Below are positions 29,922 to 36,862 of a stretch of 41,285 nt of DNA, piece after piece. Numbering within the stretch: position 1 is the first letter of the stretch; every line of letters starts with the position of its first letter. Source of the DNA: Desulfocapsa sp. (GTDB taxonomy: Bacteria; Desulfobacterota; Desulfobulbia; Desulfobulbales; Desulfocapsaceae); the NCBI GenBank assembly GCA_030145625.1, contig JAQYVF010000041.1, forward strand, positions 1 through 41,285. The letters are read 5' to 3'. The position numbers and the translations under genes were made by a program. Under the pieces are notes generated by a model that ran no database searches, was not told where the DNA came from, and saw only the letters and a list, made by a program, of their open reading frames with translations.

Positions 29922-30764
29922 CTATCTGGTAACTAGATAAAAACCAATGCCGCCAGCCGCCAGCCAGATGTTGGTGATATTGGATACGGTAATGTTGAGT
30001 ACGGCAGCCAGGGGTTTGTTACGGCTGAGCAGGGCTAAACAGGATTTGAACTCTGGCCAGGAGGTGAGTGTGGCTAGAACCAGAAACCCGATTATTCCCT
30101 TTGGCGCTTTGGAGTGTTCGGCTGCAAAAGAGACTACAGGGTCGAGGAAAAAGCCAGCTCCGCAGAGAAGGATAATGGCGGGGAAAAACCATATTCTGGC
30201 CTCGGGGTGATACATTTCATCGCTCTCTTGCTCCCCTTCTTTTGGCCGAAGGAAAAAGAGAGGTATTGTTAGAATTAAGGCGGTAAGCAGCCAGTATGGG
30301 TATAATGACTTGTCCAGTAAATAGAAACTTATGGCCAGAGTGGCAGTTGAGAGGATAGTGACAAGATTGTAGATGGGGTTTGTTTTGAAGGTCTGTAGAG
30401 CTCTTCCGCAGATGATTGCGGCAGTGAAGAGCAGGATCGGGTTCATGAAATTTGATCCGAGTGGCGTGGAGGCAGCAAAAAGGACATCGCCGACCGCCAG
30501 ACCAGCAATAAGGCAGAGCGCCTCCGGGCCATTGGTGATAAATCCGGTGACGGTGCCGATCCCTTTGATGTGTTTGATGGACTCGATGATGATCTCTATT
30601 GATAGGCCAATGATCATCATTTCAACAATAATCCCACATGCTCCGATGAAGGAGAGTTGCACATTACCTTGAAAAAACAAGGAGCTGCCGCAGAAAAAGG
30701 CCAGGACCAGAAGCCAAACCACCAGATCCAAGGTGTTAACTGAGTTCAGCAGGAGCTGTTTCAT
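29922..30764 (-). CDS. CaCA-type sodium/calcium exchanger-like membrane protein
   Basis: A 280-residue inner-membrane protein with about nine hydrophobic helices. Two inverted alpha-repeat-like segments are visible: TGFITNGPEALCLIAGLAVG with TPLGSNFMNPILL (~75-110), and LATLTSWPEFKSCLALLS with ITVSNITNIWLA (~235-275). In the CaCA superfamily the acidic residue after Pro and the GSN motif coordinate cations. The family normally exports Ca2+ (or other cations) using Na+ or H+. The first motif is divergent (NGPEAL), so the ion is uncertain. Its ATG overlaps the stop of the selenoprotein gene (ATGA), indicating coupled translation. Confidence 0.8.
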   Translation of the reverse strand: MKQLLLNSVNTLDLVVWLLVLAFFCGSSLFFQGNVQLSFIGACGIIVEMMIIGLSIEIIIESIKHIKGIGTVTGFITNGPEALCLIAGLAVGDVLFAASTPLGSNFMNPILLFTAAIICGRALQTFKTNPIYNLVTILSTATLAISFYLLDKSLYPYWLLTALILTIPLFFLRPKEGEQESDEMYHPEARIWFFPAIILLCGAGFFLDPVVSFAAEHSKAPKGIIGFLVLATLTSWPEFKSCLALLSRNKPLAAVLNITVSNITNIWLAAGGIGFYLVTR

Positions 30765-31012
30765 GAATGGTGCACTTTTTGTAGAAAATCTTTCAGTTTA
30801 GTGCGGTCGAGCAGGATTCCGCTCAATTGTTCATCGCCACATTTGAGAGTGGGGATAAATTTCACCCCGTCTTTGATGGTGCGCAGGGGGCTGGTCAGCA
30901 CCTCAACTTCTTCTAGGCTGACATCGCTCATGTCTGATAGCAGCTCGTCCAGAGCTTTTTTGGCCATGCGGCAACGGGGTCAGAGGGTGGAATGGTAGAA
31001 GGTCAGATTCAT
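30761..31012 (-). CDS. Probable selenoprotein with U-P-R-C redox motif (Grx/Trx-like)
   Basis: Read from the ATG at 31012 the frame gives MNLTFYHSTL, a TGA at 30982-30980, then PRCRMAKKALDELL and on to a stop at 30761: 83 residues in all. If TGA is selenocysteine, the protein begins with a short beta strand and a U11-P-R-C14 redox motif, exactly where CPRC sits in small glutaredoxin/thioredoxin-like proteins; the later FIPTLKCGD supplies a cis-Pro-like region. A bSECIS-like hairpin lies 3' of the UGA (separate entry). The alternative start at 30967 would remove the whole active site. The GGAG sequence is 14 bases upstream, rather far. It is coupled to the antiporter gene. Confidence 0.82.
30942..30956 (-). 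promoter_or_regulatory. Bacterial SECIS-like hairpin
   Basis: On the minus strand AGCTCTGGACGAGCT folds as a perfect 5-bp stem (AGCTC/GAGCT) with a UGGAC loop. The loop begins 29 nt after the UGA codon and has G as its second base. Both features agree with known bacterial SECIS elements (apical loop about 16-37 nt after UGA, G in the first two loop positions). Confidence 0.75.
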
Positions 31013-31187
31013 GATTTTTGTTACAACTCCTTTTTCGATGTTGTGTGATATTCTAAGGTGTTAGGAAGTGTCTCGTGTGCTTGAATGATTACTTTGTCTT
31101 GTACCAATATTAGTTGACAAAAGGTTTGTATACACAGTACACCGAAAGCAGGAATATGAGCAACGAAAGTTTTCCACTTCAGAGAAT

Positions 31188-32150
31188 ATGACAATGTCTG
31201 CACCTCTCACTATTATCAGTGATCAACGCTATCTGCAACATGATACAGGTGGTGGGGAACATCCGGAAATTCCGGCCAGACTTCAGGCTGTTTCTCAGGC
31301 ACTGGAGGCAAGTCCCTATTTTAGTGATCTCACCTTTGTTCCTCCACATGTTGCTGAACGTGAATGGCTTGTGAAGGCCCATACCGAAGACTGGCTTTTT
31401 CGTTTTGAGGAAGCAGTTCTTGCAGGCCGAACTTATATCGATCATACCGATAATCAGATCTGCTACGATTCCTACGACATTGCATGTCTTTCTGCAGGTG
31501 CCGGCCTTACCGGTATAGACCTTATTGAAGAAGAAAAGGCGCGTAATGTCTTCTGCCTGGTTCGTCCTCCAGGGCATCATGCTGAACACAATATTCCTTT
31601 TGGTTTCTGTTTTTTCAACAACTGTGTTGTCGCAGCCAGATACTGGCAACACTGTTACGGTAAGAAACGTATTCTGATTTTTGACTTTGATGGCCATCAT
31701 GGCAACGGTATCCAGTCTGCCTTTGAAGATGAGGCCGCTGGCTACTATATCAGTATTCATGAACATCCGAGTTTCAGTTATCCAGGCACCGGTTATGGAG
31801 ATGAACATGGGTTGGGAGAGGGGAAAGGAACAATCCTCAACCTTCCCCTCTCTCCAGGTGGCGGTGACGATCAGGTCGTAAAACTCCTTCAGGAAACCAT
31901 TCTCCCAAAACTGAATGAATGGCAGCCAGACGCCATCATTATTGCAGCCGGATTTGATGCTCATCGAGAAGATGAGATGACAGGGCTTCACTACTCTACG
32001 GAACTTTACCATACCATAGGCTTAGTCATCCGTGACTGGGCTGAACAATTTACCGAGGGCAGAATCCTCTCTATTCTAGAGGGTGGTTATGAACTTTCTG
32101 TGCTTGGAGACTCAGTAGAAGCCTATGTGAGGGGACTTCTGGGGAAATAA
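31188..32150 (+). CDS. AcuC-like histone deacetylase-family protein
   Basis: A 320-residue zinc-dependent deacetylase-fold protein. It has the diagnostic blocks RPPGHHAEHNIPFGFCFFNN (charge-relay His pair), FDFDGHHGNGIQ (Asp and His zinc ligands), SIHEHPSFSYPGTGYGDE, and AAGFDAHREDEMTGL (second Asp ligand). Bacterial members remove acetyl groups from lysines (AcuC) or from small amines. Here it opens an operon with an AcuB-like CBS-ACT protein and two acetyl-CoA enzymes, supporting the AcuC role. ATG at 31188 is used; the ATG two codons later is an equal alternative. The start region is divergent from the selenoprotein gene. Confidence 0.92.
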   Translation: MTMSAPLTIISDQRYLQHDTGGGEHPEIPARLQAVSQALEASPYFSDLTFVPPHVAEREWLVKAHTEDWLFRFEEAVLAGRTYIDHTDNQICYDSYDIACLSAGAGLTGIDLIEEEKARNVFCLVRPPGHHAEHNIPFGFCFFNNCVVAARYWQHCYGKKRILIFDFDGHHGNGIQSAFEDEAAGYYISIHEHPSFSYPGTGYGDEHGLGEGKGTILNLPLSPGGGDDQVVKLLQETILPKLNEWQPDAIIIAAGFDAHREDEMTGLHYSTELYHTIGLVIRDWAEQFTEGRILSILEGGYELSVLGDSVEAYVRGLLGK

Positions 32151-32178
32151 TAAGTTCTTTTACCCATAAAGGCAGACC

Positions 32179-32817
32179 ATGTATATTTCACGACATATGA
32201 CAGGTGAACCTATTACTGTTTCTTCAGCCATGCTTCTTCCCGAGGCCAGGGCTTTACTCAACGACTATCAGTTTCGACACCTGCCTGTGGTCGATGAAAA
32301 CGGTATTCTGTTAGGGATGCTCACGGATCGTGATTTGCGATCCGCTTACCCTTCATCAGTCCTCAGTAACAGTGAACGTCAATTGGTTTATGAGAAAGTA
32401 GAAAAGACCACTGTTGCTGAAATTATGTCCACCGATTGTGTTACCTTGGGGCCAAATTCCACCTTGGATGATGCCCTTTTTCTCTTTGATCGCGATCAGA
32501 TGGGAGCTCTGCCTGTACTTGATGAAGAGAGAGTAGTAGGGGTCTTTTCTATCAGAGATCTGACTACAGCCTATAAAAATCTCTTTGGTGTTGGAGAAAA
32601 AGGATCTATTCTTATAGGTATTGTAGATGATGGGAGTCCCGGTATTATGACTCGGATCGTGACGCTTTTGGAAGAACAGCAGATACCTTTTACCAGATTG
32701 TTGCGTATTTGCGGTAAGAGTGATGGTGATACCATCTATCTGCGAATTAATACATTTAAAATCGCGAAAGTTTACGCTCTCTTGGAGGAAGAGGGTTTAA
32801 CTGTAAAACGGGCCTGA
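32179..32817 (+). CDS. AcuB-like CBS-pair plus ACT protein
   Basis: A 212-residue cytoplasmic sensor. Residues ~1-60 and ~75-135 are two CBS motifs (FRHLPVVDENGILLGMLTDR and MGALPVLDEERVVGVFSIRD), which bind adenine nucleotides; residues ~140-212 form an ACT domain (ILIGIVDDGSPGIMTRIVTL). This is the architecture of Bacillus AcuB. It lies 28 bases after the deacetylase gene and 50 before the synthetase. I infer that it senses AMP/ATP or a metabolite and tunes the acetylation state of the acetyl-CoA enzymes in the operon. Confidence 0.9.
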   Translation: MYISRHMTGEPITVSSAMLLPEARALLNDYQFRHLPVVDENGILLGMLTDRDLRSAYPSSVLSNSERQLVYEKVEKTTVAEIMSTDCVTLGPNSTLDDALFLFDRDQMGALPVLDEERVVGVFSIRDLTTAYKNLFGVGEKGSILIGIVDDGSPGIMTRIVTLLEEQQIPFTRLLRICGKSDGDTIYLRINTFKIAKVYALLEEEGLTVKRA

Positions 32818-32867
32818 TTGTATATTCGAAGTGTTCAACTGTCCTTCTCTTTTTTTAAGGTATTTTT

Positions 32868-34976
32868 ATGACTATAGATACACTTTTCCATCCTAAGAGT
32901 GTTGCCGTTGTCGGAGCTTCGAGAACAGTAGGAAAGGTTGGCCATGATATCCTGGCCAATCTGGTTCGTGACGGTTTCCAGGGAACAATTGTTCCGATTA
33001 ATCCATCTGCTGATGAACTGCTGGGTCTTCGTTGTTTTCCATCGCTTGGTGAATATGGAGAAGAGGTTGAGCTTGTGGTTGTGGCTGTTCCACAACCTCA
33101 GGTCAAGGAAGTTTTGAAAGAGTGTGTAAAGGTAAAGGCCAAGGCAGTGATCGTCACCAGTGCAGGGTTCCGTGAGTTGGGTCCCGAAGGATTTGTTCTG
33201 GAAAAAGAGTTGGTAGAGTTCTGCAGGCGTCATGACATTCGTCTTCTGGGGCCAAACTGTTTGGGTGTGATTAATACGGAGAATCAATTAAACGCCTCTT
33301 TTGCCGGAGCTATGCCCAAATCTGGTGGGATTTCTGTTTTTTCCCAATCTGGTGCCCTGTGTACCGTAATGCTTGATCTTGCTGCAGGGCGACACCTCGG
33401 TCTTGCCAAGTTGATCAGCATTGGTAATAAGGCAGATATTTCAGAGGTGGATATCCTCTCTTACCTGGCCAAAGATGAACAGACAAAAGTCATTGTCGGC
33501 TACCTGGAAGACATTTCCACCGGAAATAATTTTGTGAAAGCGGCAGAAGACGCTTCTTCACAAAAACCTGTGGTTATTTTTAAAGCAGGTACCACTACTG
33601 CTGGGTTGAGGGCTGCGGCTTCCCATACCGGAGTGCTGGCAGGAACTGATACGGCTTATGGAGCAGCTTTTAAGCGTTCCGGTGTTGTGAGGGCAGACAA
33701 CTTTGAATCCCTTTTTGATTATGCCACGGCCCTCTATATGCAGCCTCTCCCCAAAGGGAATAATATCCTTATCATCACCAATGCAGGTGGACCGGGAACT
33801 ATGGCTGCCGATGCCGTTGAACGTGCCGGAATGCGTGTAGCTGAACTGGATCGTAATACGGCCACCGCTCTTCGAGACAAGCTTCCCCGGGTAGCCAGTG
33901 TTGGCAATCCCATCGATGTTTTGGGTGATGCAGACCCTGAACGTTACGTGGCAGCTATTGAGGCGGCCCAGTCTGACCCTGCTGTGGATGCGATTCTTGT
34001 CATTCTTACTCCCCAGGCCATGACTCGTCCTGCAGAAACCGCTCAGGCCATAGCAAATACCATTGACGGCACTAAGCCAGTGGTGGCCTCTTTCATGGGA
34101 GGAGCTGATGTCATGCCTGGACGCAAAGAACTGACAGCAACCGGTCTTCCGGATTATGAATCACCCGAGCGGGCGGTCGCAGCTCTCAAGGGAATGCGTG
34201 AGTATGCGGCCTGGCAACAGCGGCCTCCCCGGAGGGTGACTCGTTTTCGGGTCAACAGAAGGAGAGTTGAGCGAATTCTCTCCCGACGTCAGCGAATTGG
34301 CCTGTTGCAGCTGGGTGAAGTCAAGGGAAAGGATGTTCTCGGGGCTTATGGGTTTCGGATTCCCTCAGGAGCTCTTGCTTCGTCTTCGGAAGAGGCAAGA
34401 GAGGTAGCAGAGCGTATCGGTTATCCGGTGGCCATGAAGATCGTCTCTCCAGATATCGTTCACAAGAGTGACTTGGGGGGAGTACACCTTAACGTGGCCA
34501 ATGGAGAAGCGGCTGAAGATATTTATGACCTCATGACTATTAAAATTGGCAAGAAGGTACCGGATGCCAAAATTGAGGGAGTCTACGTGGAGAAGATGGC
34601 CCGTAAAGGCCTGGAAGTTATTATCGGTATGACTCGTGATCCTCAGTTTGGCCCTATGCTTATGTTTGGTCTTGGCGGAATCTTTGTTGAGGTAATGAAG
34701 GATGTCACCTTTCATCTGGCACCTATCACTGAACAGGAAGCAATCCAGATGCTCATGTCTACCAAATCCTATGCTATGCTTGAGGGGCGACGTGGAAATA
34801 AGGGGGTTGATGTCGCAGCTATTGCCTCAGGTCTTCAGCGCATAAGTCAACTGACCACAGATTTTCCACAGATTCTGGAATTAGATATTAACCCGTTTAT
34901 TGTCGGCGACTTTGGCTCCGAACCAGTGGTGGCGGATGTACGAATGACCCTGGCTCCATTGCCGGAAGAGAAGTAG
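32868..34976 (+). CDS. ADP-forming acetyl/acyl-CoA synthetase (alpha-beta fusion)
   Basis: A 702-residue enzyme interconverting acyl-CoA, ADP and phosphate with the acid, CoA and ATP. Domain order: CoA-binding Rossmann (~5-130; SVAVVGASRTVGKVG), ligase-CoA domains (~150-450) with the phosphohistidine candidate His253 in AAASHTGVLAG, then an ATP-grasp domain (~480-700; GYPVAMKIVSPDIVHKSDLG and GLGGIFVEVMKDVTFHLAP). Archaeal enzymes of this type make ATP from acetyl-CoA. Similar fusions lacking clear catalysis also include Pat-type acetyltransferases, but the GNAT domain here is on the next gene. It is followed after eight bases by the hydrolase-GNAT fusion. Confidence 0.93.
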   Translation: MTIDTLFHPKSVAVVGASRTVGKVGHDILANLVRDGFQGTIVPINPSADELLGLRCFPSLGEYGEEVELVVVAVPQPQVKEVLKECVKVKAKAVIVTSAGFRELGPEGFVLEKELVEFCRRHDIRLLGPNCLGVINTENQLNASFAGAMPKSGGISVFSQSGALCTVMLDLAAGRHLGLAKLISIGNKADISEVDILSYLAKDEQTKVIVGYLEDISTGNNFVKAAEDASSQKPVVIFKAGTTTAGLRAAASHTGVLAGTDTAYGAAFKRSGVVRADNFESLFDYATALYMQPLPKGNNILIITNAGGPGTMAADAVERAGMRVAELDRNTATALRDKLPRVASVGNPIDVLGDADPERYVAAIEAAQSDPAVDAILVILTPQAMTRPAETAQAIANTIDGTKPVVASFMGGADVMPGRKELTATGLPDYESPERAVAALKGMREYAAWQQRPPRRVTRFRVNRRRVERILSRRQRIGLLQLGEVKGKDVLGAYGFRIPSGALASSSEEAREVAERIGYPVAMKIVSPDIVHKSDLGGVHLNVANGEAAEDIYDLMTIKIGKKVPDAKIEGVYVEKMARKGLEVIIGMTRDPQFGPMLMFGLGGIFVEVMKDVTFHLAPITEQEAIQMLMSTKSYAMLEGRRGNKGVDVAAIASGLQRISQLTTDFPQILELDINPFIVGDFGSEPVVADVRMTLAPLPEEK

Positions 34977-34984
34977 GGGAAATC

Positions 34985-36862
34985 ATGGAATACGATGCAA
35001 ATTGGAAAGAAACCTATAAGGACATGATCAAGACCCCGAAACGTGCTCTGTCTCATTTGAAATCAGGGCATCGGGTTTTCCTCGGTACTGGCTGTGGCGA
35101 GCCCACGGTACTGGTTGAGGCCATGACCAAGATAGCTGGAAAACTGGCAGATGTTGAGATAGTAGAGCTTCTGACCAAGGGCAACGCGCCCTATGCCGAC
35201 AAAAAATTTGCCAGTAGTTTTAAAATAAATTCATTTTTTATCGGCCACAATGTCCGCGATGTTATTCAGGAGGGCAGAGGGGACTATACTCCTATTCTCA
35301 TGTTTGATATCCCACGCCTTTTTAATTCCGGACAGCTGCCTCTGGATGTTGCTTTGATCCAGGTTACTCCACCTGATGCCCGGGGGAAGATGAGCTTAGG
35401 GGTGTCCGTGGATATCGTCAAGAGTGCTGCTGAAAATGCCTCTCTGGTCATTGCCCAGGTCAATCCGCAGATGCCGTGGACCAGAGGAGATAGTCTCATT
35501 GATGTGTATGATCTTGATATCCTGGTTCCAGCAGATGTCCCGCTTCTGGAGCGTAAGTCTCAGACAGCACATCCGGTCAGTAAAAAGATTGCCGAGCTGG
35601 TCGCAGCTTTAGTCCCCAGCGGCTCCACAGTAGAGTTCGGCATTGGGCGAGTTCCTGGAGTCGGTCGAATCTCTCAGGCGGTTATTGTTGCGCTTCAAGG
35701 AAAACATGATCTCGGAATTCATACGGAAATGATCACTGATTCGCTTCTTGATCTGATCAAGTCGGGGGCCGTGACCGGAAACAGGAAATCCACCGATCGT
35801 GGAAAGGTTGTCACCAGCTTTTGTATGGGGACTAAGGAACTCTATGACTTTGTAAATGACAACCCTCTTTTTTCCTTCAGACCAACAGAATACGTAAATG
35901 ATTCAAATGTGATCGGCAAACAGAACCGCATGGTTTCCATCAATATGGCTCTGGAAATCGACCTCACAGGACAGGTCTGCTCCGATTCGGAAAACGGTGT
36001 CTTTTATTCAGGAGTCGGGGGACAGGTGGACTTTAACCGGGGGGCAGCCCGTTCCGAAGGGGGAAGGGCTATCATCACTATTCCATCGACCACCCAGGAC
36101 GGCAGATCCCGGATTAATGCCCGACTAAGCAGTGGATCAGGGGTAGTGGTAAGTCGAGCCACCGTTCATTACGTGGTCACCGAATACGGTGTGGCCTATC
36201 TTCACGGAAAATCGGTGCAGGATCGGACTTTGGCCCTGATTGCCATTGCCCATCCCGATCATCGTGAACGGCTTCTGAAAGACGCGATTGAGGCCAAATT
36301 TATTCGTCAGGATTTTGTTCAGGTCGAAGGGAAATTCGTGGTGGCACCCCAGGAGATGATGAAGACCACCTATCTTCTTGATGACGGTACCCAGTTTCAT
36401 TTCAGGCCAATCCACCCCACGGATGAACCGCTGATGCGCGATCTGCTCTATGCCCTTTCTCAGGAAACCCTGTATTACCGCTTCATGAGCCACAACCAGC
36501 GCTTTGGGCAGCGTGAGATACAGAATTTTGTCTATGTGGATCATCGCAAGGATGTGGCCATTGTTGGTACCCTGCCCGAGGCCCATGGCGACAACATGGT
36601 GGCTGTTGGAAGGTACTATCTTGATGAAAGGACCAACCTGGCCGAGGTAGCCTTTATTGTCCGCGATGAGTGGCAGAACAAGGGGCTTGGAACCTTCCTG
36701 TTCCGACACCTGATTACCCTTGCCAAGGCAAGTGGTATAGCTGGTTTTACTGCAGAAGTCTTGCGTGATAATAAGCGGATGCAGGCAATATTCAACCACT
36801 CTGGATATAAGGTGCAGAGCGTGGTGGAAGAGGGTGTTTACAGTTTTAAGATAGAGTTCTAA
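34985..36862 (+). CDS. Acetyl-CoA hydrolase/transferase fused to a GNAT acetyltransferase
   Basis: A 625-residue fusion. Residues ~1-440 form the acetyl-CoA hydrolase/CoA-transferase fold (FLGTGCGEPTVLVEAM near the start, then VEFGIGRVPG, GKQNRMVSINMALEIDLTGQ with the catalytic-type Glu, and VTEYGVAYLHGKSVQDR). Residues ~455-625 are a GNAT domain (FRPIHPTDEPLMRDLLYALS, acetyl-CoA-binding EWQNKGLGTFL). The fusion is full length with no frameshift. I infer that it moves CoA or acetyl groups and acetylates a lysine, possibly on the upstream synthetase, opposing the deacetylase. The gene ends the operon. Confidence 0.92.
   Translation: MEYDANWKETYKDMIKTPKRALSHLKSGHRVFLGTGCGEPTVLVEAMTKIAGKLADVEIVELLTKGNAPYADKKFASSFKINSFFIGHNVRDVIQEGRGDYTPILMFDIPRLFNSGQLPLDVALIQVTPPDARGKMSLGVSVDIVKSAAENASLVIAQVNPQMPWTRGDSLIDVYDLDILVPADVPLLERKSQTAHPVSKKIAELVAALVPSGSTVEFGIGRVPGVGRISQAVIVALQGKHDLGIHTEMITDSLLDLIKSGAVTGNRKSTDRGKVVTSFCMGTKELYDFVNDNPLFSFRPTEYVNDSNVIGKQNRMVSINMALEIDLTGQVCSDSENGVFYSGVGGQVDFNRGAARSEGGRAIITIPSTTQDGRSRINARLSSGSGVVVSRATVHYVVTEYGVAYLHGKSVQDRTLALIAIAHPDHRERLLKDAIEAKFIRQDFVQVEGKFVVAPQEMMKTTYLLDDGTQFHFRPIHPTDEPLMRDLLYALSQETLYYRFMSHNQRFGQREIQNFVYVDHRKDVAIVGTLPEAHGDNMVAVGRYYLDERTNLAEVAFIVRDEWQNKGLGTFLFRHLITLAKASGIAGFTAEVLRDNKRMQAIFNHSGYKVQSVVEEGVYSFKIEF

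Follow-up and report, generated by a model that had tools for sequence, protein, structure and literature searches.

MJ0307-type thioredoxins (TIGR00411) are small archaeal-type proteins of about 85 residues with a thioredoxin fold. One solved structure of this group, PDB 1fo5, we take to be that of MJ0307, whose active site is presumably CPYC. Thioredoxin-like and glutaredoxin-like proteins can also carry selenocysteine (Sec, U). Among those described are the Sec thioredoxins (PF00085) and glutaredoxins (PF00462) with a UxxC motif (PMC13188914), the small glutaredoxin-like Sec proteins called UXX-star (NF041212, NF047338), and SaoT (NF040730), a thioredoxin-like UxxC selenoprotein named in Table 1 of PMC13188914 together with a transporter group (SaoX, SaoB, SaoP, ABC). 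Here we describe a gene of this general type, with a UPRC motif, in a 41,285-nt stretch of Desulfocapsa sp. DNA (assembly GCA_030145625.1, 229 contigs, 4.98 Mb; contig JAQYVF010000041.1). This whole stretch is referred to as the window, and its positions are numbered along the forward strand. The gene overlaps the start of a second gene, predicted to encode a CaCA-type exchanger. Table 1 of PMC13188914, an inventory dated 2026, lists 119 selenoprotein families or subfamilies, and none of the names in that table refers to UPRC or to an exchanger partner; its broad "Thioredoxin" and "Glutaredoxin" entries could include the UPRC family. Of the selenoprotein genes that PMC12013277 counts in Desulfolithobacter dissulfuricans GF1, 22 are known and 0 new, so that the UPRC gene would either stand there under a known name or have been missed. 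Our literature search returned no paper joining UPRC with selenoprotein, or selenocysteine with Desulfobulbales, and the literature on Desulfocapsa with selenocysteine or on CPRC with thioredoxin held none about the UPRC family, judged by title. With this locus, selenoprotein research gains a well-supported family that goes unnamed in its inventory of 2026.

The product of the locus is very probably (probability about 0.92) a true selenoprotein, an oxidoreductase with one thioredoxin-fold domain, for which the UGA at codon 11 would be decoded as Sec with the help of a hairpin just downstream; its gene overlaps the exchanger start. The claim rests on the alternation of TGA and Cys codons at one alignment column, on a hairpin in fixed register, and on the Sec machinery of the host genome. 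The first-pass annotation, made from the letters of the window, had pointed to an in-frame TGA between FYHSTL and PRCRMAKK, to a hairpin AGCTC-UGGAC-GAGCT with its loop 29 nt past the UGA and G as the second loop base, and to an ATGA overlap with the exchanger gene. All of these are present, on the minus strand, which that annotation had not named (Table 1). Counted from the base after the UGA, the hairpin has its stem AGCUC at 24-28, its loop UGGAC at 29-33 and the stem GAGCU at 34-38, and the exchanger open reading frame (ORF), 30764..29922, begins within the ATGA. The start at 30967 expected from standard calling is likewise the one in the plain ORF list, where the gene is truncated to 30967..30761 (68 aa). 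Gene callers that lack Sec rules are expected to lose the UPRC active site.

Table 1. Coordinates of the features of the locus in the window
Feature	Positions	Strand	Remarks
Putative selenoprotein gene	30761..31012	minus	83 residues, MNLTFYHSTL-U-PRCRMAKKALDELL...; read-through translation
Selenoprotein stop codon TGA	30761-30763	minus	
In-frame TGA, codon 11, predicted U of UPRC	30980..30982	minus	TGA 49, TGC 50, TGT 29 among 128 members
Codon 14, presumed resolving Cys of UPRC	30971..30973	minus	Cys in 127/128 members, Ser in one
Codon 54, Pro preceding a strand (cis-Pro place of the thioredoxin fold)	30851..30853	minus	Invariant in 128; strand 55-58 in the model
Shine-Dalgarno-like AAGGAG ahead of the selenoprotein start	31027..31032	minus	Duplex energy -8.2 kcal/mol
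bSECIS-type hairpin AGCUC-UGGAC-GAGCU	30942..30956, loop 30947-30951	minus	Fixed register in Sec genes; found de novo by RNAalifold
Predicted exchanger gene, divergent CaCA-type, 280 aa	29922..30764	minus	Start in ATGA (30764-30761) overlapping the selenoprotein stop

Homologues were collected from 193 related genomes. A match was obtained in 129 cases, of which one (G167), without a [U/C]PR motif, was removed before every family count; the 128 members kept carry [U/C]PR[C/S] at the right place. Cys homologues aligned to the UGA, on which the first-pass annotation had made its prediction depend, were found in 79 of the 128 members, and the other 49 have TGA at this column. U/C11, P12, R13 and P54 are invariant. 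The count of in-frame TGAs ends at the first stop past the key codon, and later TGAs were checked separately in the matched stretches, which contain only three further stops, all near the C-terminal end (TAA in G184, TAG in G143, TGA in G106). Since 25 of the 49 Sec genes also terminate at TGA, this codon has both meanings within one gene. The ratio pN/pS over the nine codons before the TGA is 0.19 in genus g1 (18 genes) and 0.23 in genus g5 (12 genes), and over the twenty codons after it 0.31 and 0.28 in the same two sets. A tree of the family, built on 85 columns and with a bootstrap that had not settled, requires 12 changes between Sec and Cys, at least 6 of them forced by well-supported branches, which indicates from the alignment that the family has switched between the two repeatedly. 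Loci fetched later from previously unseen genomes (26 of 27 places, that in G626 not being listed) comprise 16 Sec and 10 Cys genes and bring the Sec members seen altogether to 65; these loci are relatives and not independent draws. One genome, G619, has a Sec copy and a Cys copy (L189, L190).

Going by these searches, the protein family was seen only in the order of the window. In a sample of the phylum, 7 of 395 genomes matched at E 1e-9, all 7 within this order. A sample of the class gave matches in 150 of 242 genomes at E 1e-6, and among the rows shown every match belonged to the window's order or was nearer; the restriction to one order rests on the phylum sample because the class sample does not show its number of genomes from outside the order.

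Bacterial SECIS elements (bSECIS) are hairpins located just past the UGA, with a G within the first two loop bases. Folding of the window sequence by itself gave the hairpin no support (minimum free energy z = +0.32, with 124 of 200 shuffles folding as well), and for this reason the comparison was made across relatives. A permissive search found a hairpin in 49/49 Sec and 35/79 Cys genes. Resampling of synonymous codons gave a mean z of -2.7 for Sec and -0.6 for Cys genes, with p < 0.05 in only 19/49 and 6/79, respectively. Counts in a fixed register later replaced both procedures as the clear test. With five base pairs at the position found in the window, the hairpin is present in 32/32 Sec genes of the window's taxonomic family as compared with 2/45 Cys genes. 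In these 32 Sec genes (29 distinct sequences) the five pairs are formed throughout, with 100% of the cells paired; two pairs show changes on both sides, and RNAalifold recovers the hairpin de novo. The variants of the stem are GCUC/GAGC to ACUC/GAGU and GUUC/GAAC, in which the changes on the 3' side are synonymous (Leu CTN to TTR, Glu GAG to GAA) and the change on the 5' side alters the residue. The percentage paired, the double-change cells and the covariation score each beat every one of the 500 shuffles, whereas the counts of double-change pairs and of further pair types did not stand out (114/500 each). The two Cys genes with the full hairpin, G023 (L042) and G039 (L045), have TGC in place of TGA and are placed among Sec genes; they are apparently recent Sec losses with a leftover SECIS.

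None of the 17 Sec genes of other families has the hairpin at the window's position. With the loop at +22, five base pairs are formed in 11 of these 17 and at least four in 13, compared with 0/34 Cys genes of other families and, at four base pairs, 1/45 Cys genes of the window's family. RNAalifold found this hairpin unaided, with double changes at four of its five pairs; shuffles reached the number of double-change pairs in 20/500 cases and that of further pair types in 339/500. Both registers were picked on the same 128 genes, and hence the loci fetched later were taken as a check. There, the +22 hairpin occurs with at least four pairs in 14/16 Sec genes (9/16 at five pairs) versus 0/10 Cys genes; the two Sec genes missing it are G593 and G575. 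As judged by these alignments, there are at least two SECIS positions among the clades, which arose either through independent gains of Sec or because the element shifted. In two Sec genes of a separate clade, G141 (L104) and G135 (L148), the hairpin agrees poorly with both registers (best -2.0 kcal/mol, loop at +19). An Rfam scan of the window returned nothing above threshold, and ARAGORN found no tRNA in it. The UPRC family is a good natural experiment, in which a small protein has undergone repeated Sec/Cys switches with SelB mostly kept, has two SECIS positions, and includes Cys genes retaining an intact SECIS. In it one can study directly the benefit of Sec for a thioredoxin-like protein and the origin and decay of SECIS elements.

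The selA, selB, selC and selD genes, the presence of which in the genome had been made a further test of the prediction, were all found. The host genome has selB (374 bits), the gene for tRNA-Sec, selC (73.4), selA (490.7), which begins at a contig end and covers 124-454 of 455, and two selD genes (373 and 346). Each of these selD genes (L018 1501-2442 and L019 1501-2430, G000) has one in-frame TGA, and they look like genes for Sec-containing SelD. Among the 193 relatives, selB has a match at 1e-40 in 182 genomes and above the cut-off in 165, and its presence fails to separate Sec from Cys genomes.

The AlphaFold2 model of the selenoprotein has a pLDDT of 95.4 and a pTM of 0.86. A thioredoxin fold whose helix 1 begins at the U is predicted with confidence: the model has the order beta-alpha-beta-alpha-beta-beta-alpha, a redox motif starting helix 1 and a conserved Pro before strand 3. 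Foldseek and VIA-align matched it mainly to thioredoxins; fold-switched KaiB also ranks among the best VIA rows. The thioredoxin- or glutaredoxin-like nature first read from the motif is thus borne out by the predicted fold. When the family profile was compared with solved structures, the best relative was the thioredoxin 1fo5 (E 1e-12), and 111 of the 128 members match TIGR00411 at E <= 0.001; MJ0307-type thioredoxins differ from this family, which has a U/CPRC motif and many members with Sec. The window protein stays below every NCBIfam and Pfam cut-off, scoring 22.8 against a gathering score of 23.5 for PF00085 and 20.3 against 22.9 for PF00462, and 26.4 against a curated cut-off of 92.75 bits for TIGR00411. 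Among other members the best Pfam E-value is 1.8e-7 (Thioredoxin_3), which suggests that some may pass a Pfam cut-off and that Cys members may bear a generic thioredoxin or glutaredoxin name. The protein shares the UxxC motif and the thioredoxin fold with the Sec thioredoxins and glutaredoxins, but differs from them, as those entries appear in PMC13188914, by an invariant P-R between the redox residues and by having been seen in one order only. From UXX-star it is separated by scores of 12.3 of 66 (NF041212) and 12.2 of 97 bits (NF047338). SaoT offers a parallel in its association with a transporter group, but here the partner is of the CaCA type, and the window protein has no NF040730 match up to E = 1.

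In the mechanism that we propose, SelB and tRNA-Sec would decode the UGA at codon 11 as Sec, helped by the hairpin just downstream. The finished protein would use its selenol to attack the disulfides of a partner, or oxidised sulfur of a related kind, and Cys14 would resolve the selenenylsulfide by dithiol-type chemistry. Thioredoxin reductase, with a match of 374 bits in the host genome, may reduce the selenoprotein as its electron source. As to a possible use of glutathione, PF02955 has a match in the host genome (66.9 bits), yet it also hits control genomes such as B. subtilis and archaea. One member of the family, G004 (L029 1501-1746), has UPRS, with Sec kept and Ser in place of the resolving Cys; it would need an outside thiol.

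On the basis of PF01699 and a two-repeat fold, the coupled gene is predicted to encode a CaCA-type exchanger, as the first-pass annotation had proposed. The match to PF01699 has 31.9 bits (cut-off 24.9) and consists of one stretch in the second half. The model has a pLDDT of 85.1, and Foldseek matched it to VCX1, CAX, YfkE and NCX_Mj. With these the protein shares its fold and the PE and SN motifs in both halves (invariant here as P80-E81, S104-N105, P237-E238 and S261-N262), but the identity in the Foldseek rows is 11-19%, and a sequence search of the PDB gave no match up to E 0.01. The exchanger occurs in 45 of the 193 genomes, in 43 of them directly behind a Sec (20) or Cys (23) gene of the family. 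It was found without a UPRC/CPRC gene upstream in the two remaining genomes (G030, G066) and in a single case from outside the order (G415). Selection for the selenoprotein-exchanger pair is favoured because the upstream neighbours vary among the exchanger-linked loci. For the spacing, gene starts were assigned by alignment with the window protein. The 4-nt overlap occurs in 18/20 Sec pairs, including 17/18 genes of the window's genus, and in 5/23 Cys pairs, of which the median gap is 10 nt (range -4 to 105). One genus supplies 18 of the 20 Sec pairs, and their overlap is therefore close to one phylogenetic event. Within the window's genus, its probable reason would be that the two proteins work jointly or have to be co-produced.

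What the selenoprotein does next to the exchanger can be read in more than one way. There is close to an even chance that it is a general thioredoxin- or glutaredoxin-type reductant whose linkage to the exchanger is merely inherited gene order. In 85 of the 128 members no such exchanger is adjacent in the fetched stretches, and genus g5, in which 12 Sec and 2 Cys members of the family occur, gave no exchanger match. Outside the window's family the gene often lies behind a member of a cluster whose one tested member is a class-I adenylate cyclase (38/128), because of which the protein cannot depend on the exchanger. Against inherited order stand the exchanger kept directly downstream in 43 of 45 exchanger genomes while the upstream neighbours change, and the 4-nt overlap in the window's genus. 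A direct action, in which the selenoprotein would reduce cysteines near the ion site of the exchanger, is suggested by this linkage together with two cysteines of the partner; we consider it rather unlikely on the alignments at hand. All aligned exchangers have Cys84, three residues past the first PE Glu, and 39/42 have Cys242, four residues past the second PE Glu. These positions make a redox link possible, no more, and the cysteines lie in predicted helices where a soluble protein might not reach them. Moreover, the exchanger from outside the order (G415) keeps the first Cys, not the second, and has no such neighbour.

The arrangement also raises the idea of a "selenium-gated ion exchanger", in which the Sec codon and the hairpin would act as a riboregulator and the exchanger would be made well only when selenium is plentiful. 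The reasoning is that the exchanger gene begins within the stop of the selenoprotein gene (ATGA or NTGA), where ribosomes halted at UGA 11 would not arrive. The Cys pairs are, as given above, spaced more loosely than the Sec pairs, a contrast that is close to a single phylogenetic event. In the window the exchanger has nearly no Shine-Dalgarno sequence of its own, at -0.4 kcal/mol as compared with -8.2 for the selenoprotein. Shine-Dalgarno-like sites before the exchanger are nevertheless stronger in the Sec forms (mean -3.8) than in the Cys forms (-1.1), which speaks against full dependence on read-through. We regard gating as doubtful; if true, it would make the Sec codon both an active-site residue and a regulator of ion transport.

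Explanations that dispense with Sec insertion fare much worse. Translation from the downstream ATG at 30967, with a 68-residue product and the upstream part untranslated, is very improbable, even though it agrees with the ORF list and a Met is found there in 37/49 Sec versus 10/79 Cys members. This Met is missing from 12/49 Sec and 69/79 Cys members, each of the 79 Cys members reads through from the upstream start in a single uninterrupted frame, the codons ahead of the TGA are under purifying selection, and the short form would be deprived of strand 1 and the active site. It is just as hard to take the hairpin for a terminator, another regulator or a by-product of conserved protein sequence. 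On the plus strand, 30942-30956 (the SECIS with the Lys-Lys codons) does score as resembling an intrinsic terminator, and the region has 3 such sites versus 1.9 expected. The hairpin, however, tracks the TGA and not the protein family, with the two Cys genes described above as its only Cys carriers among the 45 of the window's family; in stem pairs altered on both sides the 3' substitution leaves the amino acid unchanged, and other clades have the hairpin at a different position. A pseudogene or sequencing error that turned a Cys codon into nonsense, for which one can cite the single base between TGA and TGC or TGT and the TGC of two close relatives, has a negligible chance given TGA in 49/128 members from many genera and in 16/26 loci fetched later, where the frames are intact and the hairpin is conserved and covaries.

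On the plus strand of the window, positions 31188-36862 hold a divergent cluster with histone-deacetylase-like, CBS-domain and CoA-ligase/ATP-grasp genes and an acetyl-CoA hydrolase fused to GNAT. Relatives of its first and second genes lie upstream of the family gene in 39 and 45 of the 128 loci, respectively.
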